From Deltaproteobacteria bacterium (GTDB lineage: Bacteria; Myxococcota; Myxococcia; Myxococcales; 40CM-4-68-19), in contig JANYKT010000019.1 in the NCBI GenBank assembly GCA_025358085.1, positions 62,001-126,000 of the forward strand: a DNA stretch of 64,000 bases, read 5' to 3'. Both the position numbers and the translations under genes were made by a program. Shown here piece by piece: positions 23,553 to 61,694 of this stretch (the first letter of the stretch is position 1; every line of letters starts with the position of its first letter). The notes under the pieces were generated by a model, which saw only the letters and a program-made list of their open reading frames with translations, made no database searches and had not been told where the DNA came from.

Positions 23553-23625
23553 GCCCGGGTAGCTCAGTCGGTAGAGCAGGGGATTGAAAATCCCCGTGTC
23601 ACTGGTTCGATTCCGGTCCCGGGCA
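23553..23625 (+). tRNA. tRNA-Phe (GAA anticodon)
   Basis: Complete cloverleaf: acceptor gcccggg pairs with cccgggc, D-arm gctc...gagc, anticodon stem gggga/tcccc with loop ttgaaaa (anticodon GAA), and T-arm with ggttcgattcc. Discriminator A; CCA is not encoded (actcca follows). Its 3' half is repeated, degenerate, at 37475-37521, which suggests this gene served as the attachment site of an integrated element filling the interval. Confidence 0.96.
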
Positions 23626-23957
23626 CTCCAGACCTCGACAATTTGCGCACTTGCCTCGGACGGACCAGTCCGATGGGTCCGCCGGATCCGGCCGGATCTG
23701 GGGTTGCTGTTACAACTGTGCTACAGCGCGCTGGGGTCGGTTGCGGGCTTTTTCTCGCAGTCGCCTCAACGGCATAGGTGTCGATCGCCGAGCGCGCCGG
23801 GCCGTCAAGGGAAGCCTCCAGCCGCGCCGCGAGATCATCGTCAGACGACGCCCACAACTCCATGACGGGGTACTCGCCGATGCGAACAAACAAGGGCCCG
23901 TGCGAGTGCTCGGATCTCTTCGCTTTGATGGCATCCTTCAATTGATCGTTGCTGTAT
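23626..23957. other. island edge next to tRNA-Phe, no gene supported
   Basis: Just downstream of the tRNA. A minus-strand frame runs through here and into the antisense of the tRNA, giving the known spurious peptide GIEPVTRGFSI, so I do not accept its end. Upstream in that frame, SNDQLKDAIKAKRSEHSHGPLFVRIGEYPVMEL looks protein-like but matches no family I know. An integrase gene, expected here, is absent. Confidence 0.4.
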
Positions 23958-23959
23958 CT

Positions 23960-24335
23960 AGAATGGGATGTGGGCAACCTGTCGCAATTGCCGCATTCCT
24001 TGGATGTGTGAGCCTGACAAGACCTCCTCCTGAATGCCCCCGGCGCCTGCATCATGATGTCCATGACCTGCTTGATCCGCGCGCCCGCGACCTCCGCGCC
24101 GCACAGCACCCTCCTGAATCCCCGGCGCCAGCATCAGCAAATCCATGATCTGCGTGACGAGCGCCCGCGATAGGCGCCCCAGCCGATCAGAACCATCTCG
24201 CTGACCGACCTCGCCTGGGCTCTGCTGCGAAGGACGATACGCGCGAGTCAACGCGCCTGCTCGACGAGGCGCGCGTGAACCGTCCCTGCGATACCTGGAG
24301 GGAACTCCGCGCGAAGCAACCAGGTGGATCGACAC
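23960..24335 (-). pseudogene. remnant of a recombinase-type helix-turn-helix protein with an internal duplication
   Basis: The minus strand encodes RLGRLSRALVTQIMDLLMLAPGIQE, matching the HTH segment typical of proteins encoded with serine recombinases (usual form: VSRARVTQIMNLLNLAPDIQE). About 88 nt further on, in another frame, comes a second version, ARIKQVMDIMMQAPG, followed in the first frame by IQEEVLSGSHIQG. At DNA level the two stretches (about 24021-24090 and 24108-24172) are imperfect direct repeats. No recombinase catalytic domain remains. This fits the eroded integration module of the island. Confidence 0.5.
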
Positions 24336-24438: not shown

Positions 24439-26409
24439 TCACTGGCTCGCGACCGCTGCCTGCGCGCGGACCACGCCCTGCCCGAGATCCGCCAGCATGT
24501 CGCCGCGGCCGACGAGATCCTCCGCGCCGCCGCGGTCGAGGATGACCTTCGAATTGACCGCGCTCGCGACGCGCAATGCGATCTTGCCGCCGAGGTTCGC
24601 TTTCAAGACCGGCGGCACCGTCTGGCGGTCGGGCCGCTGGGTCGCCAGCACCAGGTGCACTCCCGCGGCGCGCGCCTTCGCGCCGAGCCGGCCCACCGCG
24701 GTGCAGAATGCTGCCGACGCCTTCTTCTCCGCGGTGAGGTCCTGGAATTCGTCGATGACCACCACGTGGCGCGCGAGCCTTTGCGTGGTCGAGACCGCTT
24801 GATTGTATTCGTGCAGATCCGAGACCCCCTCCTTCTCGAACTGCGCATACCGTTCTTCCATCAACTCGACGTAGCGCTCGATGCAGGGCATGGCGTCATC
24901 GATGCTGTAGAGCAGCGGACCGTCGAGGTGCGCCCCCAGCGCGGCCTGGAATCCGCCGCTCGTGAAGGTGACGCGCTTCGGGTCCAGCAGCGTGATCCGC
25001 AATGACGACGGATCGTGCCAATGCACCAGACTCGCTACGATCGACCGCAGCAGCCAGGACTTGCCGCTGCCGGCCTGCCCGCCAATCAAGAGATGGGGAG
25101 TCGCGGAATCGGAGAGATCGCAAGTGACGATCGCACCGTCAGGCTGCTCGCCCAAGACCAGCCGGCCGGGGCGCTCCGAGAGCCACTCGCGCCTGGCCTC
25201 GAGGAGCTTCGCCAGCAGCACCGGCCGCGGGTGGGCGCGCTTGACCACGAATGAGCGGCGAGGCCCATCTTTGACATAGCTCGCTTCGCAGACCTTCACG
25301 GAACTCAGCCGGTGACAGACGTCGAGCGCATTGCGATCGAGTTGGGCCAGCGACCCGCGCGGCCGTGAAATGAAGATCTGATAGATGGTCGGCCCGACGA
25401 CAGGCGCGGGCGAGACGGCCGTGACCCCGTCCTTCCGCAGCTCGTCAATGATCCGCTTCTGGATCGCGAGGGCCTCGCGCAGCCCGTCCTCGTCGGAGGA
25501 CGCCGCGGTCGGTGGCTGCACCGGAACCGGCGCCGTCATGCCGCCTGAGGCCGCCGAACGAGGGCGCGACGCGGCCATGGGCGGGTCGTCGCGCGCAGGC
25601 AGCCGGCCCGGGTAAAGCTCGGCGCAATCGGTCGCGACCGGACAGGCGGCGCACAGGTCGCGCCGCACGGTCGCGGGCGCGCTGTCCGGGTCGTCCAGCC
25701 AGCGCGCCATCCGGCTGAGCAGCGGCACGAGCTGCGTGCGCACCATCTCGTCGGCGCGCTCCTCGCGGACCTCCACGACCGTCAGCGCCGGATTGAACCG
25801 CAGGATGACCGGCCGTGCCGAGATCCCCTCCGCGCGCTGAAGCAACTCGCGATAGAGCGCCACCTGCGCGCGATCGACCGCTTCGTTCTCCTGGTCGGTG
25901 AGTTTGTATTCGATGACATCGATTCGCTCGTCGCCCAAGGCGTGAAGCGCGTCGATGCGTCCGGTCAGCAGCACGGACGCTTCGGGGAGGTGCGCCTCCA
26001 CGGAGCGCTCGCCGGCGCGCAGCAGCGAGCGAAGCGCCGCGGCAGGCTCGCCCTTGCCAATGCGCTTGGCCAGATAACCCGCGAATTGTCGCAGCGCTTC
26101 TGCGAGGTCGTCCACCTCCGCCGGCATGCTGCGATAGGAGGGATCGCGCTCGAGTTCCTCAATCAGGAAGCCCAGGATCCAGCGAGCGATTGCCGCCGCG
26201 GCTTCGTCGCCTTCCCGCAGTCTCGCGATGTAGTCAGGCGGCGCATCGACTGTCTGCGCGAATCGATCGACCACGCGGTGGAAGGTGCCGCCCAGGCACG
26301 ACGACCCGACCGGGAACGTCACCTGCCGGTGGAGGCGCCTCCCGATGGTGAAGACGCGAGGGCAGCGCAGGGCGTTCCGGACCTCGGTCACCGAGACTCG
26401 CGCGGTCAT
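24439..26409 (-). CDS. RecB/Cas4-like Fe-S nuclease fused to FtsK/SpoIIIE-type DNA translocase
   Basis: 656 residues. Residues 1-265 form a PD-(D/E)XK nuclease of the RecB/Cas4 type: H44, D153 (GRID), E167-x-K169 (IEYK) and QxxxY at 182-186. Four cysteines, C16, C253, C256 and C262, are spaced as in the Fe-S cluster of Cas4/AddB. After a Pro/Ala-rich linker (270-340) comes an FtsK motor: Walker A GGQAGSGKS (443-451), LLDPKRV, Walker B VVVIDEFQDL (D553, E554) and LATQRPD. The membrane and gamma DNA-reading domains of true FtsK are missing. Predicted to translocate on and cut DNA. The ATG overlaps the stop of the AAA gene (ATGA), so the two are cotranslated. It is the last gene of the cassette. 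Confidence 0.85.
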   Translation of the reverse strand: MTARVSVTEVRNALRCPRVFTIGRRLHRQVTFPVGSSCLGGTFHRVVDRFAQTVDAPPDYIARLREGDEAAAAIARWILGFLIEELERDPSYRSMPAEVDDLAEALRQFAGYLAKRIGKGEPAAALRSLLRAGERSVEAHLPEASVLLTGRIDALHALGDERIDVIEYKLTDQENEAVDRAQVALYRELLQRAEGISARPVILRFNPALTVVEVREERADEMVRTQLVPLLSRMARWLDDPDSAPATVRRDLCAACPVATDCAELYPGRLPARDDPPMAASRPRSAASGGMTAPVPVQPPTAASSDEDGLREALAIQKRIIDELRKDGVTAVSPAPVVGPTIYQIFISRPRGSLAQLDRNALDVCHRLSSVKVCEASYVKDGPRRSFVVKRAHPRPVLLAKLLEARREWLSERPGRLVLGEQPDGAIVTCDLSDSATPHLLIGGQAGSGKSWLLRSIVASLVHWHDPSSLRITLLDPKRVTFTSGGFQAALGAHLDGPLLYSIDDAMPCIERYVELMEERYAQFEKEGVSDLHEYNQAVSTTQRLARHVVVIDEFQDLTAEKKASAAFCTAVGRLGAKARAAGVHLVLATQRPDRQTVPPVLKANLGGKIALRVASAVNSKVILDRGGAEDLVGRGDMLADLGQGVVRAQAAVASQ

Positions 26410-28289
26410 TCTTCCACCCAGCGGACGATGGCGTCGCCGATGAAGGCCACGCTCTTTGACGAGCCAAGCTCGCGCAGCACGTCGGCGCGGTTCGCATGCG
26501 CCTCCCGAATCAGCCGCTCGAGCGACATCACCCGCAGCGCGCGGAGAATGGCAATGGCCCCTGCGGCCGAGGCGGGATGTTTCTCAAGCACCGTCGACTC
26601 CGGTTGCTGCTCCTTTGGCGTCGCACCGCAGAGCGCCTGCGTAAGGGCCCAGCCGCGCACCTCAAGCTTCGCGCGCGCCCATCCTTTCACGGCCTCGAAC
26701 GCGAGCGACTTGCCATCGCGTCCCGAGACGTCTCCCGATCGCGCGTCTTTCAACAGCTTGGCAAGCGCGAGCATATTCACCGCTTCGTCTCTATCGAGCC
26801 ATTGCCAACCGACCGAAGGAGCCTTGCGGAACGATTCCCACTGCGCGCGCGTCTGCTTCCAGGTCGGAGGCCACTCGCGCCAGCGCTCTCGCAACGCCAC
26901 GACGCCCCCTGGCAGGCCCGCGAGCGTACGCAAGAACGCCAGCACCGAGGCCGGGTTCGCCTGATTCAAGATCGCGATGAATGCGGGACCTTTAGGCTGC
27001 ACCATCCGCAACAGGTTCGGCCGCTCGATCTTGATCGGTCCGAGGTCAGGCAGGAGCGAAGCCAGCGCAACGAATCCCTCGAGAAGAAAAGCCATCTCCG
27101 GACCGTGACCGGTGAGGGCCATTTCGTCGATATGATGGCGGGCGAAGGCGAGGCAGCCCTCCCACGCCGCGAGGCAGGCGTCGTCCGGTGGCTCCGCGGC
27201 CTTCTCCGCCGGTGCATTGCCTTCCAGAGCTTCACGCAGCTCCTCCAGGAGCATTCGGGGCGTGAGGCCCACTGTGTCGCAGAGCGTAGCCAGCTGGCCG
27301 TCGGTCAGCGGCGAGGCCACGTTCTTGAGCCAGAGCTCGACCAGCGCGCGGCGTTCCGACGGCGTCGGCAGCAGAAGCGGTATTCGCCTTCCGATCACGC
27401 GCGATCGCTGTGACGGGCCGAACCTGCGCTCGATGTTCGCGTCCCACTCGGTGCTCAGGCCCATCTGCACGATCACCAGGTCGCGCACTACGTCCACCAA
27501 CTCCGCGATCAGGTTCCCATAGGCGATGATGCGCGAGCCGCTACCGCCGGGATCAATCAGGTTCTCCAGTTGGTCAAAGACAATCACCAAGGGCGAGGTC
27601 GCCGCGGCCACCGCCGCGATGGTGCGCAGCGCGGAGATCACCTCACCATCGGGCAGAGCGTCCCGCACGCCAACTCGACGGGCCTGCGCGTCGTCGAGGT
27701 CGCGGCCGCTCAGCCAGACCAGCAGCGCCGTGCGCGGGAGCGGCTCGGCGAAGGGGACGCGCAACAGCCGCTCGAGATAGCTTGTGTCAATCCCGGCGGC
27801 GGACGGCGCGAGGCTCTCGATGGCCTGCTCGACGCGCGCCTGCCGCTCCTCGGCGGACAGCTCGCGAAGCTGCTGCAGCATGGCAGCTGGAAACCTGGGG
27901 TTCTCGCCGCCCGCCAGCGCGAGCGTCGTGCCGGCGATGACGTCGATTTGCGACTGGCCATAAGAGTTGTACCCGAGCTGCTGCACGATCTGGCCGAGCA
28001 GGAATCGCGGCGTCATCTCGCCGCCGATCAGCGGCCGGACGTGAACGAAGACCCCTCGCGCGCCTACCTTCCGCCGCAACCTGCCGAAGAGGTGAGTCTT
28101 GCCGACGCCGGCAGGGCCTACCGCGACGATGGCCAGGGGCGGCTCACCGCGCTCCCGGGCCTGCGCGCGGCGCCGAAGGTCTTCAATCGATTGCACCACT
28201 GCATTGGTGGCGGCGGCGTTGAGGGAATCGAGATCGAGGATCTCCGGCGCCCAAGGCTCGGCGTGCGTCGGCGCAAGCTGGTTCGTCAT
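26406..28289 (-). CDS. AAA/STAND-like ATPase of the island cassette
   Basis: 627 residues from ATG 28289. P-loop GPAGVGKT (58-65), then ARGVFVHVRPLIGGEMTPRFLLGQIVQQL, which recalls Orc/Cdc6-like or BREX-type ATPases. Walker B is LVIVFDQLENL (D239, E242). A probable sensor/arginine region follows (RRFGPSQRSRVIGRRIPLLLPTPSERRALVELWL). The C-terminal 300 residues are helical and unrecognised. Start and stop both overlap the neighbouring genes (TAATG upstream, ATGA downstream), strongly suggesting one protein complex with the winged-helix protein and the nuclease-FtsK fusion. Role inferred, not known. Confidence 0.7.
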   Translation of the reverse strand: MTNQLAPTHAEPWAPEILDLDSLNAAATNAVVQSIEDLRRRAQARERGEPPLAIVAVGPAGVGKTHLFGRLRRKVGARGVFVHVRPLIGGEMTPRFLLGQIVQQLGYNSYGQSQIDVIAGTTLALAGGENPRFPAAMLQQLRELSAEERQARVEQAIESLAPSAAGIDTSYLERLLRVPFAEPLPRTALLVWLSGRDLDDAQARRVGVRDALPDGEVISALRTIAAVAAATSPLVIVFDQLENLIDPGGSGSRIIAYGNLIAELVDVVRDLVIVQMGLSTEWDANIERRFGPSQRSRVIGRRIPLLLPTPSERRALVELWLKNVASPLTDGQLATLCDTVGLTPRMLLEELREALEGNAPAEKAAEPPDDACLAAWEGCLAFARHHIDEMALTGHGPEMAFLLEGFVALASLLPDLGPIKIERPNLLRMVQPKGPAFIAILNQANPASVLAFLRTLAGLPGGVVALRERWREWPPTWKQTRAQWESFRKAPSVGWQWLDRDEAVNMLALAKLLKDARSGDVSGRDGKSLAFEAVKGWARAKLEVRGWALTQALCGATPKEQQPESTVLEKHPASAAGAIAILRALRVMSLERLIREAHANRADVLRELGSSKSVAFIGDAIVRWVEE

Positions 28290-29083
28290 TACGCAGCTCC
28301 GGTCAGGCGTGCCCAGGAGAGCCGGGTACCGCGCGGACCGGGCGGACACAGATCCAACTCTTCCGGCGAGAGGCGGTCGAGACCCGAATCGGGCTGCAAC
28401 TCGATGCGCCCGCCTCGCGCTGCCTCGAGAATCGCCGCGTGCACCTCGCTGGGCCGGTGAGCGGACAGCGCGCGAACCGTGTCCGGCACGAAGCTCAGGC
28501 CCACGGACACGCGCACGTGGCGGCCCAGCTCAGCGACGGCCGTGTCCAAGAGCGACACTGCCTTACGAGACTGCACGAACTCCAGAAGCTGCTCGCGCAC
28601 GTCGTCCTGCAGCACCGTCGCGTCGCGTCTCAACGCCTTGGCAGCGAGGGTGGCGAGGAGCTTGCTCGCCCGCGCGAGCGCCACGAGTTGTTCGCGAGAA
28701 AGGGTCGCGGCCGAGACGTGAGCCAGAATCTCGACCTTGCCGCGGAGCACGGTCTTGGCGCGCCCTTCGCTCACCAGGGCGGCGGCCACCGCTTTGACCT
28801 CTTTCACCGTGGCGCCGCGTACGGCTTTGACAAGCTGCGAGGGCGCGATCTGCTTCCGCTCCTCGAGGTTTTTTATGAGCTGCTTCCGGAGCGGGACGCG
28901 AACAGCCTTTGGCGTGCGCTCGAATCCGTCCGCCTCCAGGCGCGACAGCGCAGCTGCATGCTGGGCGCGCGGAACGCCCGCTTTCGTGAGGGCTGGCGCG
29001 TTCAGCGCTTTCTCGCGCTCGAGCGCGGCGCGGAGAGCGGGAAGCACTGAATCGAGATCGATCGTCTTTGCGCGCGAGGCCAA
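28289..29083 (-). CDS. multi winged-helix-like protein of the island cassette
   Basis: 264 residues starting at TTG 29083 with AGGGGAGA just upstream. No family recognised by name. It looks like serial winged-helix units: PALTKAGVPRAQHAAALSRL, then SQLVKAVRGATVKEVKAVAAALVSEGRAK, and a C-terminal one (VHAAILEAARGGRIELQPDSG). The last residues, LSPEELDLCPPGPRGTRLSWARL, look like a conserved signature. Probably the DNA-binding or target-recognition part of the cassette. Its stop overlaps the ATPase start by one base. Confidence 0.6.
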   Translation of the reverse strand: MASRAKTIDLDSVLPALRAALEREKALNAPALTKAGVPRAQHAAALSRLEADGFERTPKAVRVPLRKQLIKNLEERKQIAPSQLVKAVRGATVKEVKAVAAALVSEGRAKTVLRGKVEILAHVSAATLSREQLVALARASKLLATLAAKALRRDATVLQDDVREQLLEFVQSRKAVSLLDTAVAELGRHVRVSVGLSFVPDTVRALSAHRPSEVHAAILEAARGGRIELQPDSGLDRLSPEELDLCPPGPRGTRLSWARLTGAA

Positions 29084-29454
29084 TTTCTCCCCTCTGGTTG
29101 CAGGGCACTGTACCAGTCTCGCTTGCCTCGAGTGGGTTCTGTTACCGCGCGCCTCCCTCTCGGCATCGGGCGTACCTGCGCAAATTTGGCGCGTCGCCGA
29201 AATACGATCTCCCGCGCGCTTGATTAGAGCTTCATCGGATCTCGGTCAGGGCGAAGGGAGCTGAATCGGGCGGTGGTTTTCTTTGAGGCGGGTCAACGCT
29301 GACAGCCTGCGCCTTCAGCGAGCGTCCGGCGGTCAGCCGGGTTGCGTGATGATGCGCACGACCTGCGAAACGACCATGTCGCTTGGACCCTTATCGGCGA
29401 GTTGGCCGTCAACCGCCATCGAGGCGAGGCCGTCCGCGTGCTCCCTCGCGAACC
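29084..29454. promoter_or_regulatory. 371-nt spacer upstream of the three-gene unit
   Basis: Lies between the SNF2 gene stop and the winged-helix gene start, both on the minus strand. Long enough to hold its own promoter, so the helicase and the three downstream genes may be separate transcripts. No coding frame is convincing. Near the start codon the minus strand reads tggtacagtgccctgca, which resembles a sigma-54 site but has 11 rather than 10 nt between GG and GC. Confidence 0.3.
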
Positions 29455-32043
29455 TCACGCCTGTTGGGCGCCGAGCCTGCGGGCGAGCTCGGCGAAGAAG
29501 CCGGCCAGCGTCGCAGCGGCCTCCGCCGGTGCCTCGATGCGCAGCCCGCCGCCCGCGGTCGGCTCGATCCGCACCTGCGCGAGAGTGTCCATCAGGATCG
29601 AGCTGGCGTTGGCACCGGCCCTCGCGGACTCGTTCGCGGGCGGCGCGGCCGTCCCGGCGTCGAGGGCCCCATCGGCTGGCGGAGAAGGCAGGTCGAGAGA
29701 GGCGTCTTCGGCTGCAGAGCGCGCTCCTTCGCCGAGGGCCGCCGGCAAGTCGACCAGCTTTTCGACGCGCGAGAGAAACGACCCGCCGCCGTCGTAGCGC
29801 ACTTCGTCCGAGGCGCCGTCGAAGAGACCGGAGAAGAGCGCCCTCTTGTCGCCGAGCAGGCCCGCGATGCGCGCTTCGATGCCAGCCTCGGCGACGAGGT
29901 TGTAGACCTCGATGCGGTTCTTCTGCCCCATCCGCCAGATGCGGGCGATGCGCTGCTCGAGCACGGCAGGATTCCAGGGCAGCTCAAGGTTGATGCAGCT
30001 ATCGGCGGCGTGCTGGAGGTTCAGGCCGACGCCGCCCGCGTCGGTCGCGAAGAGGACGCGGGTGCGCGCGTCGTCGTGGAAGTCGACCAGGTTCTGCGTG
30101 CGCCGCTTCGGCGACTCTTTGCCGCTGAACCAGACCGCGCGAAGCCCCGCGGCTTCGAGAAGGTCCCCGATCGCCCAGTGCGCGAGCGTGAGCATGCGCC
30201 GCCACTGGCTGAAGACGACGATGCGCCGCTCCTGCACCACCGCCAGCTGGCGGACGAGCTCCCGCAGCTCCCCGAGCTTGGGCGAGCCGAGCGTGGAGAG
30301 CACCGCGGGAGTGGGCCGCTCGCGGGCGATGCCTTGGCCAAGCTCGTCGTAGCGCGCGAGCGCGAGCCCGTTGCAGAGCATGCGCTGCTCGGTGAGCATG
30401 GCCATCAGGCGCTGGAACTCGGGCGGAGTGAGCGGCCGCCGCCGCCCGCGGGCCGCGAGCGCAGCGATAGGAGGGATGAGCGCGTCGTGCTCCTCGAGCT
30501 GCTGCGGCGTCAGCTCGACCGGAACGCGCGTGTCGATCCGAGCCGGCAGCTGCTGCAGCACCTCCTGCTTGCGGCGGCGCAGGAACGACGGGGCCATGCG
30601 GTCCCGAAGCGTGTCGAGGTGCCGCGCGCCCGCCACCTCGCGCTTCCCGCCTTCGTGCAGCGTGTGCCACGGCGTGAGCCGCCATTTGGGCTCGAGCGCC
30701 GTGTCGTCCACCCAGTCGTAGAGGGAAGCAAGCTCGTCGATGCGGTTCTCGAGCGGCGTGCCCGTCAGCACCAGCCGGAACAAGGGCTGCAGTTGCTTCA
30801 CGCTCGCCGCGGTCTTCGTCTGCCAGTTCTTGATCCGCTGCGCTTCGTCGAGCACCACCAGCTCCGGATCCCAGGCCCGCATCGCCGCGAGATCGCGCAC
30901 CGCCTGCTCGTAATTGGATATAAGGAATCCATTGCCTGCCTGATAGAACGCCTGCCTCTCGCTCGCGCTGCCTTCGACGAGGCGGACCGGCACATCGGTA
31001 AACGAACGCCACTCTCGCAGCCATTGTGGCTTAAGGCTCGCCGGCACGATGAGCAGTCCGCGTCGCACCTTGCCCAGCTTCCAGAGAGCGTGACAGGCGC
31101 CGATCGCCTGCGCCGTCTTACCCAGCCCCATGTCGTCGGCCAACAGCAGCCGCCCGGTAGTGACCGCCCGGCGTACGCCTTCTCGCTGGTACGGGAAGAG
31201 CCGGTGCTTCAGGCTGCGCAGGACCGCGCCGAGACGTTCGCCGATCGGTGCGAGTGAAATCAGCCTCTGCAGCCGCTCGGCTTCCTCCGTGAGCAGCGGC
31301 AAGAGCGCTGGGTCGGAGGGCAGTGAACCTCCGCCGGAGGTATGGCCAGCGAGGCGGAGCAGCGCAGCTACCAGCGCACGGCGGCGTTCAACATTGCGCG
31401 GGTGCGTGCTGCTGAGAGAGCGCGCCTCGCCGCGGCCGGCGAAGCCGGCGTCGATAAGCTTGCGGTGCGGCGACGTCGGGAGCGGCCCCAGCCACCGGAT
31501 GCGAGCGAGCACATCGTCCTTGCCGAGAAGCGGCCGAACGGGGTCCCACACGAGACGTCCCACGGCGGGCGACGCGGGCGCGTGCGGTTCCCGGGCGCTC
31601 CGAGGCTTTTGGTGGGCATGAGTGAGCGCGACCAGGAGGTGCTTGCAGAGGGCCAGTCCGTTGCGCACGAAGTCCCGGCAGTCGCAGCTGCCCGACAGTC
31701 CAGCGCCGGCGGTGAGCAGCGTGCGGTAGGGGCGGCGGCTCGCCTTCGACGCGATGGTATAGAGGCCAGTGGCCGAGCGCGCCGGCACATGCACGGCGCG
31801 AAGCGCCTCTCGCGTGGCCGCGGCCTTTCGTCGCAAGAGCGCCTCGAGCGCGGCCCGGCGAAGCGGGAAGTCTCCTCCCTTGGTGACCTCGAGGATGTGG
31901 AGCGCGACCAGCCTCGCGGGAATCGCTCCGAAGCGTTTCCCCGCCATCCCCTCGAGCTCGCGCCGTGCATCGTCGTCGACGACCGAGGTTCTGAGGGAGG
32001 CCCCCGGCTCAATGAGCGCTGGTGGTTGTGACAAGCTCGGCAC
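29455..32043 (-). CDS. SNF2-family helicase-like ATPase with N-terminal SWIM zinc finger
   Basis: 862 residues. The SWIM finger is C120-x-C122...C133-x-H135. The SNF2 core begins near residue 275: LFPYQREGVRRAV, motif I DDMGLGKT (303-310), motif II DEAQ (399-402, Gln instead of His), LTGTPLENR, and in the second lobe IVVFSQWRRMLTL, ATDAGGVGLNLQ and the arginine-finger motif RIARIWRMGQKNRIEVYNLV. About 120 C-terminal residues are low-complexity and end helical. Such enzymes translocate on duplex DNA and recur in DISARM, Zorya and Dpd systems. GTG start with GGGGAGG at good spacing. First gene of the putative cassette. Confidence 0.88.
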   Translation of the reverse strand: MPSLSQPPALIEPGASLRTSVVDDDARRELEGMAGKRFGAIPARLVALHILEVTKGGDFPLRRAALEALLRRKAAATREALRAVHVPARSATGLYTIASKASRRPYRTLLTAGAGLSGSCDCRDFVRNGLALCKHLLVALTHAHQKPRSAREPHAPASPAVGRLVWDPVRPLLGKDDVLARIRWLGPLPTSPHRKLIDAGFAGRGEARSLSSTHPRNVERRRALVAALLRLAGHTSGGGSLPSDPALLPLLTEEAERLQRLISLAPIGERLGAVLRSLKHRLFPYQREGVRRAVTTGRLLLADDMGLGKTAQAIGACHALWKLGKVRRGLLIVPASLKPQWLREWRSFTDVPVRLVEGSASERQAFYQAGNGFLISNYEQAVRDLAAMRAWDPELVVLDEAQRIKNWQTKTAASVKQLQPLFRLVLTGTPLENRIDELASLYDWVDDTALEPKWRLTPWHTLHEGGKREVAGARHLDTLRDRMAPSFLRRRKQEVLQQLPARIDTRVPVELTPQQLEEHDALIPPIAALAARGRRRPLTPPEFQRLMAMLTEQRMLCNGLALARYDELGQGIARERPTPAVLSTLGSPKLGELRELVRQLAVVQERRIVVFSQWRRMLTLAHWAIGDLLEAAGLRAVWFSGKESPKRRTQNLVDFHDDARTRVLFATDAGGVGLNLQHAADSCINLELPWNPAVLEQRIARIWRMGQKNRIEVYNLVAEAGIEARIAGLLGDKRALFSGLFDGASDEVRYDGGGSFLSRVEKLVDLPAALGEGARSAAEDASLDLPSPPADGALDAGTAAPPANESARAGANASSILMDTLAQVRIEPTAGGGLRIEAPAEAAATLAGFFAELARRLGAQQA

Positions 32044-32178: not shown

Positions 32179-32526
32179 TCAAGGGCGAACCACCGCGCAG
32201 TCACTTGTTCCAAAGTCGATCGAACCGCGCAAAGACCTTCTCGAGGTCAAAGCCGGGGCGTCCGGCCGGAGCACGCTGGGCAGGTCTCGCGCCAGCCCTG
32301 CTGCAAAGATCCGTCGGCGGCATTCTGTCATGCCGAATGAGCGGCGTTGCTTCGACAAAGGATCTACTTTGAGTTCGGCCAACTTGCGATCGACCAGCGC
32401 GACGAAATCTGCCGAGGTGAAATCAGCGCGCCGGTCGCGCAGCCTGTCGAGATCGTAGAAGTCGCGGATGGCGTCGCGCGTAAACGCCGCACGTACCTTC
32501 TCTGCCCGCGCTTCCGCAGCGGCCAA
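32179..32526 (-). pseudogene. 3' fragment of an AbiEii/AbiGii-type nucleotidyltransferase toxin gene
   Basis: Only the C-terminal part is present. The start of the frame, AAAEARAEKVRAAFTRDAIRDFYDLDRLRDRR, matches the EEALAEKlRAal...iRDfYDL block that lies past the middle of AbiEii-like toxins. The nucleotidyltransferase core that should precede it is missing; that space is taken by the next, different gene. Possibly a separate decayed system or the scar of a deletion. Confidence 0.55.
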
Positions 32527-37474: not shown

Positions 37475-37521
37475 GGGAGATTGAAACTCCTGTGTCAGTG
37501 TTCGATTCCGGTCCCGGCACC
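37475..37521 (+). repeat. degenerate 3' half of tRNA-Phe, probable attachment-site remnant
   Basis: Starts in the anticodon stem (gggagattgaaactcc, anticodon GAA kept) and runs through the T-arm to the acceptor 3' strand. An 18-nt core, gttcgattccggtcccgg, is identical to 23605-23622 in the intact tRNA and in the same orientation. Upstream and acceptor-end bases differ, so it is not a working tRNA. Integrating elements that use a tRNA gene leave precisely such a 3' copy at the far end. Confidence 0.75.
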
Positions 37522-61031: not shown

Positions 61032-61694
61032 TCAGGTCCTCAGTGTGAAATTCTCTTCGAGCAGCGCGGCGGTGAAGGAGCGGCGCAGATAAAACGCGCG
61101 CGGCGCGGTGCGGGCCGGCGCGCCCTCTTCGTCGATGGACCAGCGCAGCGCAGCTGCATTGCGGCCTTTGGGGCGCAGCTGCAGCCAGGTGCCCCGGTGG
61201 GCGGTGACCTTGAAGCCTTCGCCAATCAATTCGACGATGTCTTCATAATCGCAGCGCAGGGTCTCGTGTTCTCGCGGCGACGGGCTCCACAACAGCGCCG
61301 CGCCCAGCCTGCGCTCGCCGAGCGGGATGTGCGGCGACGCCTCGACCGCGACCCAGGCGACCCGCGCGAGCTTCTTGCGCACGGGCGAGGTCTCCCAGCG
61401 TCGATCGACCGCGCCGAGGTCGAGAGACGAGACGAAGCAGGACTGAAGCGGCCGCCCGCGCGGATCGACCGGGATGGTCTTGAGTTCGATTCCCAGCTGG
61501 GGAAAGTCGGGCTCGGCGCGCGAGGCCGCGGTGGCGCCCAGCGCGCGCTCGAGCAGCGTCCCTACCCAGCCTTTGCTGCGGCGCAAGTCGACGGGGACCT
61601 CGAACCCGTGGGTCGCCGCGATGGTCGAGAGCCGGTGGCCCGCCAGGCGGCCGAGGCGGCGGGAGAGGTCGGCCTCGTCACGCGGGGGTTCCAT
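61032..61694 (-). CDS. mutH: MutH-type mismatch-repair endonuclease
   Basis: 220 residues, close to E. coli MutH (229). SKGWVGTLLERALGA carries the conserved Glu, AEPDFPQLGIELKTIPVD the D-x6-E-x-K catalytic site, then LQSCFVSSLDLG, VRKKLARVAWV, LGERRLGAALLW and PRAFYLRRSFTAALL. In gammaproteobacteria MutH nicks the unmethylated GATC strand after MutSL. Outside that class it is rare, so this may be transferred or serve as a Sau3AI-like nuclease. No dam, mutS or mutL in the window. ATG 61694 chosen over a TTG at 61700. Confidence 0.88.
   Translation of the reverse strand: MEPPRDEADLSRRLGRLAGHRLSTIAATHGFEVPVDLRRSKGWVGTLLERALGATAASRAEPDFPQLGIELKTIPVDPRGRPLQSCFVSSLDLGAVDRRWETSPVRKKLARVAWVAVEASPHIPLGERRLGAALLWSPSPREHETLRCDYEDIVELIGEGFKVTAHRGTWLQLRPKGRNAAALRWSIDEEGAPARTAPRAFYLRRSFTAALLEENFTLRT

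Follow-up and report, generated by a model that had tools for sequence, protein, structure and literature searches.

The closest described counterparts of the locus analysed here are the Orc/CDC6-type HerA/FtsK capture systems, a class that is known from prediction only (Rakesh, Aravind and Krishnan 2024, PMC10853773). In the account given in its main text, these systems occur in mobile neighbourhoods and contain an Orc/CDC6 ATPase with an inactive REase domain before a C-terminal wHTH. Variously fused to one another, the other components are an active REase from one of two families, a HerA/FtsK translocase and proteins with a single wHTH or with two to four of them. The role proposed there is the interception of selfish DNA.

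Three adjacent genes in the window (the whole 64,000-nucleotide stretch of DNA that was analysed) share this plan. They encode an Orc/Cdc6-like AAA+ protein with a probable inactive REase-like domain before a C-terminal wHTH, an FtsK motor with an FtsK-alpha-like region, a PD-(D/E)XK nuclease with active-site residues and a separate multi-wHTH protein, and the loci are mobile. Unlike the class as presented in that account, the nuclease is of the Cas4/RecB type, carries a four-cysteine site and is fused to FtsK. The main text of PMC10853773 contains none of the terms RecB, Cas4, SWIM and Myxococc-, and a literature search for a Cas4/RecB-FtsK system found no described match. Judged by its predicted domains, the triple fits the Orc/Cdc6 HerA/FtsK capture plan and appears to be a new form of it, set apart from the main-text account by the Cas4-type nuclease and its fusion to FtsK. 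No system in PADLOC, Pfam or NCBIfam fits the cassette, and when the three proteins and that of a neighbouring SNF2 gene were compared with the PADLOC models, they matched only generic SNF2, FtsK, Cas4 and AAA domains. The statement in the preliminary description that the locus could not be matched to a name thus holds for PADLOC, but the core does fit the published, predicted capture class.

Organisation of the locus

The three core genes and the SNF2 gene are four minus-strand reading frames (Table 1), located where the preliminary description had placed them. The TAATG and ATGA overlaps that it reported are present on the coding strand as GTAATGAC, where the AAA ATG at 28289 lies inside the winged-helix stop, and as AGAATGACC, where the AAA stop meets the FtsK start at 26409. 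The AAA reading frame remains open beyond its ATG, up to a GTG at 28349, and the winged-helix gene begins with TTG, preceded by the Shine-Dalgarno-like stretch AGAGGGGAGAAA. The SNF2 gene shows no overlap and is separated by a 371-bp gap from the winged-helix gene downstream of it.

The neighbouring tRNA gene mentioned earlier is tRNA-Phe, and the "broken defence genes" around the locus come down to one AbiEii fragment and nothing more. By eye, a frame at 23958-24335 containing 'LVTQIMDLLMLAPGIQE' resembles the remnant of a helix-turn-helix gene often found with recombinases, and a protein encoded at 61032-61694 resembles the MutH mismatch endonuclease.

Table 1. Features of the three-gene locus and its surroundings in the window
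Feature	Position	Strand	Basis or remark
tRNA-Phe	23553..23626	+	
Nuclease-FtsK gene (core gene 3)	24439..26409	-	656 aa; Pfam, relatives 50-64% identity, motif check
FtsK motor, residues about 400-650	24460..25212	-	Walker A GSGKS, Walker B VVVIDEF
Nuclease domain, residues about 1-265	25615..26409	-	PD-(D/E)XK, Cas4/RecB type; motif check
Orc/Cdc6-like AAA+ ATPase gene (core gene 2)	26406..28289	-	AAA_16, AF2 model, Foldseek
C-terminal wHTH of AAA+ protein, model residues 594-643	26418..26567	-	Model and motif check
Probable inactive REase-like domain, model residues 388-536	26739..27185	-	Model secondary structure
AAA+ domain, model residues 44-374	27225..28217	-	GPAGVGKTH, VFDQLENL, TPR
Tandem winged-helix gene (core gene 1)	28289..29083	-	264 aa; AF2, Foldseek, homologues in other loci
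SWIM-SNF2 ATPase gene, optional neighbour	29455..32043	-	862 aa; Pfam
AbiEii fragment, bystander	32182..32526	-	Pfam AbiEii 8.5e-5; match limited to profile positions 139-196 of 238
Degenerate direct copy, tRNA-Phe 3' half	37476..37521	+	Local alignment; possible decayed attachment site

The nuclease-FtsK fusion protein

Pfam assigns both FtsK_SpoIIIE (9.6e-29) and PDDEXK_1 (5.7e-18) to core gene 3. The catalytic residues of the nuclease (H44, D153, E167-x-K169, Q182 and Y186) are kept in all 13 close members, and the same holds for four cysteines, C16, C253, C256 and C262 (13/13). This pattern of catalytic residues and cysteines is that of Cas4/AddB-type Fe-S nucleases and predicts an Fe-S site. 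PADLOC Cas4 models match the protein at 1.7e-8, while a PDB sequence search with the nuclease domain gave no useful match.

The FtsK-alpha-like region precedes the motor: the alignment with chromosomal FtsK begins at residue 296, and Pfam FtsK_alpha is found in a distant relative of the protein (L088) at E 0.014. Walker A and B are conserved in the motif check of 14 members. The best PDB relatives of the motor are the FtsK translocases 2ius/2iuu (FtsK structures 9e-56), and 6o1w, a DNA translocase coupling protein, is also among them. In the motor tree, the motors of the triple all group together in a single clade (100/99), and both chromosomal FtsK and the SspH/DndH motors lie outside it. The strong PADLOC match of SspH to the motor (2.7e-58) therefore reflects a shared motor type and not membership. 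Being a separate clade, the motors of the triple are not those of a chromosomal FtsK paralogue, a candidate that was rejected. The remaining matches of the genome searches for the triple are other FtsK motors, among them those of two SspFGH-like loci (L085, L086), a chromosomal-type FtsK (L087) and the motor of L088.

The Orc/Cdc6-like AAA+ and tandem winged-helix proteins

Core gene 2 has an AAA_16 match in Pfam (4e-8). The AF2 model of its product (mean pLDDT 77.8) contains an AAA+ domain, followed by a helix-strand-strand-strand-helix-strand segment and a wHTH. In Foldseek, p97 and HslU rank first, and Cdc6/Orc1 2qby and ORC 7tji are also among the AAA+ matches; a PDB sequence search with the AAA profile yielded no useful match. 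The middle segment follows the element order of the REase fold (helix, three strands, helix, strand), and (D/E)-x-K is absent from it in 14 members. On the basis of the model, this segment is a probable inactive REase-like domain.

A Pfam search of the winged-helix protein gave no match. Its AF2 model (pLDDT 86.5) consists of three tandem winged helices, and the top Foldseek matches of this model are tandem winged-helix proteins, with a best E of 1.3e-3 and none below 0.001. Homologues of this protein occur in other loci of the triple.

Recurrence and distribution of the triple

Conclusions on loci are based on tblastn and open-frame checks. The window belongs to a genome of the myxobacterial group. 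In a contig scan, the nuclease-FtsK protein was found at five myxobacterial loci (50-63% identity), all with the AAA gene directly upstream and, where the contig extends, with the winged-helix gene before it. Counting the window, 13 loci have the winged-helix, AAA and nuclease-FtsK genes in this order on one strand, the genes either overlapping slightly or lying close together. Three further loci are incomplete: L012 begins inside the winged-helix gene, L083 is shortened by an internal deletion, and the copy in genome G261 is split over contigs. The arrangement is not due to chance, since other genomes have the three genes in this order too. The winged-helix, AAA and nuclease-FtsK genes are one translationally coupled, mobile and conserved three-gene unit with the appearance of a conflict system.

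The profile search detected members of the triple in 11/379 genomes of the Sandaracinus-like phylum group and in 2/195 genomes of the window's own phylum group, i.e. in 13/574 sampled genomes, in addition to two others. A distant second version was found in genome G537 (L088, 6567-11293), the AAA protein of which is 26% identical; its nuclease contains the catalytic residues and lacks the four Fe-S cysteines.

Homologues of the AAA protein are absent from 50,697 phage and 72,556 plasmid records. Viral relatives of the triple were found neither in the search for related loci nor in the phage collection. The FtsK query produced only motor matches against plasmids, covering about half of the query. 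The AAA region of a Myxococcus-type protein (see below) had no plasmid match, and the L088 AAA protein had one weak match, in Pseudanabaena.

The SWIM-SNF2 neighbour

The SNF2 gene contains SNF2-rel_dom (1.3e-30) and Helicase_C (6.4e-18) according to Pfam; SWIM is below its cut-off (E 0.015), yet the CxC...CxH motif is complete. The preliminary description had treated this gene as part of an exact set of four. If the four listed genes were one obligate system, its support would be the SNF2 orthologue adjoining the triple in two independent loci, the window (same strand) and L014 (divergent, 47% identical), for which a rough estimate of coincidence is P < 1e-4, as well as a different, large SNF2 protein beside the triple in a third locus, L015, whose genome carries the orthologue of the window SNF2 on another contig. 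The genome-level overlap of SNF2 and triple also exceeds expectation (3 vs 0.54, P 0.014). Such an obligate system is nevertheless very improbable. The orthologue is absent from at least nine loci of the triple with a covered upstream flank, and orthologues (E < 1e-150; 13/379 and 11/195 genomes of the two phylum groups) stand in 18 loci with no part of the triple nearby and with varying neighbours. Moreover, the gene is set apart by its gap in the window, and its orientation differs between the window and L014.

Thus, the four-gene set does not recur, whereas the triple does, and the co-occurrence data rule out SNF2 as a core member. Since adjacency and genome overlap go beyond chance and the orthologues mostly stand alone, SNF2 is best regarded as an optional accessory.

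Mobility, selection and the tRNA-Phe site

At three loci, L077, L078 and L083, the DNA is 88-90% identical across little more than the three genes (4.8 kb), up to a point just past the FtsK stop, and comparison of their flanks showed no meaningful match outside the three genes. Because identity is confined to the genes and the flanks are unrelated, the cassette moves as a unit and is present at three unrelated sites. In L083 (7507-10358), an internal deletion of ~1.2 kb has taken away the last part of the AAA gene together with the N-terminus of the nuclease; this is a decaying copy of the cassette. Between L077 and L078, dN/dS is 0.24 for the winged-helix protein, 0.16 for the AAA protein and 0.12 for the FtsK protein. 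The triple is under purifying selection, and the winged-helix protein, the presumed recognition protein, changes fastest of the three.

An alternative function of the triple would be DNA repair, in which FtsK and the RecB-type nuclease would process broken chromosome ends after loading by the AAA+ and winged-helix proteins. The Cas4/AddB-like character of the nuclease agrees with such a machine, as do SbcCD-like genes directly downstream of the triple in L015 and, at a distance of about 5 kb in L081, RecB/RecD-like genes, both recognised by eye. The triple is, however, present in only about 2% of the genomes of the group and moves as an isolated cassette with unrelated neighbours elsewhere, and repair is rather unlikely to be its function.

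On its left side, the locus in the window is collinear with G005 and G002, which belong to the same family, up to the 3' end of tRNA-Phe, where synteny stops. A degenerate copy of the tRNA 3' half is located 13.9 kb from the intact gene, with a local alignment score of 63; the window was also divided into 313 other pieces of 400 bp, none of which scored above 38. These observations suggest an integration, now decayed, that spans 23.6-37.5 kb, from tRNA-Phe to the degenerate copy. No empty site was found in relatives, and the right flank was not found beside tRNA-Phe in G005 and G002, so that integration between the tRNA and its copy is a suggestion only.

The synteny break and the degenerate copy also agree with another explanation, in which the triple would help an integrative element to be maintained, segregated or transferred and would not defend the host. 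A recombinase-like gene at L012/L045, the coupling protein 6o1w among the relatives of the motor and the change of site between genomes point in the same direction. On the other hand, the cassette moves without an integrase, relaxase or replication gene, its AAA protein has no plasmid or phage match, and an intact nuclease is kept, which makes this explanation unlikely. In L045 (4160-11361, genome G156), the triple is accompanied by helicase, PLD-like and DUF6361-like genes that resemble a known defence set by eye; the recombinase-like gene, of the tyrosine type, lies past this set.

Relation to other known systems

The DndFGH/SspFGH (DptFGH) operons also consist of three genes, for an ATPase, a multi-wHTH protein and an FtsK-bearing nuclease protein. 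However, DndH is much larger, with eight domains (PMC10853773) vs 656 aa here, and the P-loop protein DndF is of a different kind; of six members of the AAA family, one alone had a DndF match (E 0.055). Only the motor part of the nuclease-FtsK protein aligns with SspH. Membership in DndFGH/SspFGH is ruled out, since only the FtsK motor matches and the motors form separate clades. Two other loci, L085 and L086, contain SspFGH/DndFGH-like operons beside genes for a DNA cytosine methylase-like protein and a Vsr-like nuclease; no phosphorothioation genes were noticed in the stretch around these operons.

BREX-related capture systems (PMC12839542) have PglZ, BrxB- and BrxC-like parts, of which the triple has none. 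Zorya, DISARM, Dpd and BREX do not fit, as PADLOC shows no match to a ZorAB, DrmABC, DpdA or BrxC/PglZ partner among the four proteins.

In Myxococcus-like genomes, L042 (6971-13196) and L044, with which L046 is also listed, encode a DUF559-type nuclease, a wH-like protein and an AAA-HerA fusion of the 1,200-aa class near pabAB-like genes. The AAA half of this fusion is homologous to the AAA protein of the triple (E about 1e-17) and is present in many genomes of genus g24. The Myxococcus-type locus has the same functional modules as the triple, but its DUF559 nuclease is separate, its HerA is fused to the AAA protein, and it occupies the same chromosomal place in L042 and L044, whereas the triple is scattered. 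It seems to be a related version of this set of modules that has been passed on vertically.

Proposed function

The reading favoured here, with some reserve, is that the triple is a compact three-gene DNA-interception system that recognises, pumps and degrades invading DNA. It is supported by the conserved gene order, by the domain plan shared with the capture systems, by the sparse distribution, by the conserved nuclease, Fe-S and both sets of ATPase residues, by the movement of the three genes as a cassette and their dN/dS values, by the separate clade of the motors, by the synteny break at tRNA-Phe, and by the recombinase-like gene and the defence-like genes beside L012/L045. Several findings count against defence. 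The cassette travels without a modification enzyme, and no other means of self/foreign discrimination is visible; most loci have no evident defence island around them; and the phage and plasmid records, which contain no AAA homologue, give no direct indication that invaders carry the system or counteract it. On balance, the cassette probably restricts invading DNA.

For interception, the tandem winged-helix protein and the Orc/Cdc6-like ATPase would recognise particular DNA, load onto it and recruit the FtsK motor. The role of recogniser would fall to the fast-changing winged-helix protein. FtsK could then pump the duplex past the fused Cas4/RecB-type Fe-S nuclease, and invading DNA would be degraded during entry, replication, segregation or transfer, while SNF2, where present, may remodel DNA-bound protein as an optional accessory. 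We infer that the triple forms a complex, pumps and degrades DNA and is specific for invaders. The fullest version of this proposal is an undescribed, self-contained anti-invader system in which FtsK feeds duplex DNA straight into the Cas4-type Fe-S nuclease to which it is covalently joined, an Orc-like loader and a tandem winged-helix recogniser exert control, and myxobacteria exchange the three genes as a cassette with nothing added; it is believed and doubted in about equal measure.

The HerA/FtsK capture class, as published, rests on sequence and structure analysis. With only three genes in 4.8 kb, intact catalytic residues and near-identical copies at unrelated sites, the cassette is a practical object for a restriction test, and the combination of a Cas4-type nuclease and a dsDNA motor in one chain offers a simple design for studying motor-coupled degradation.
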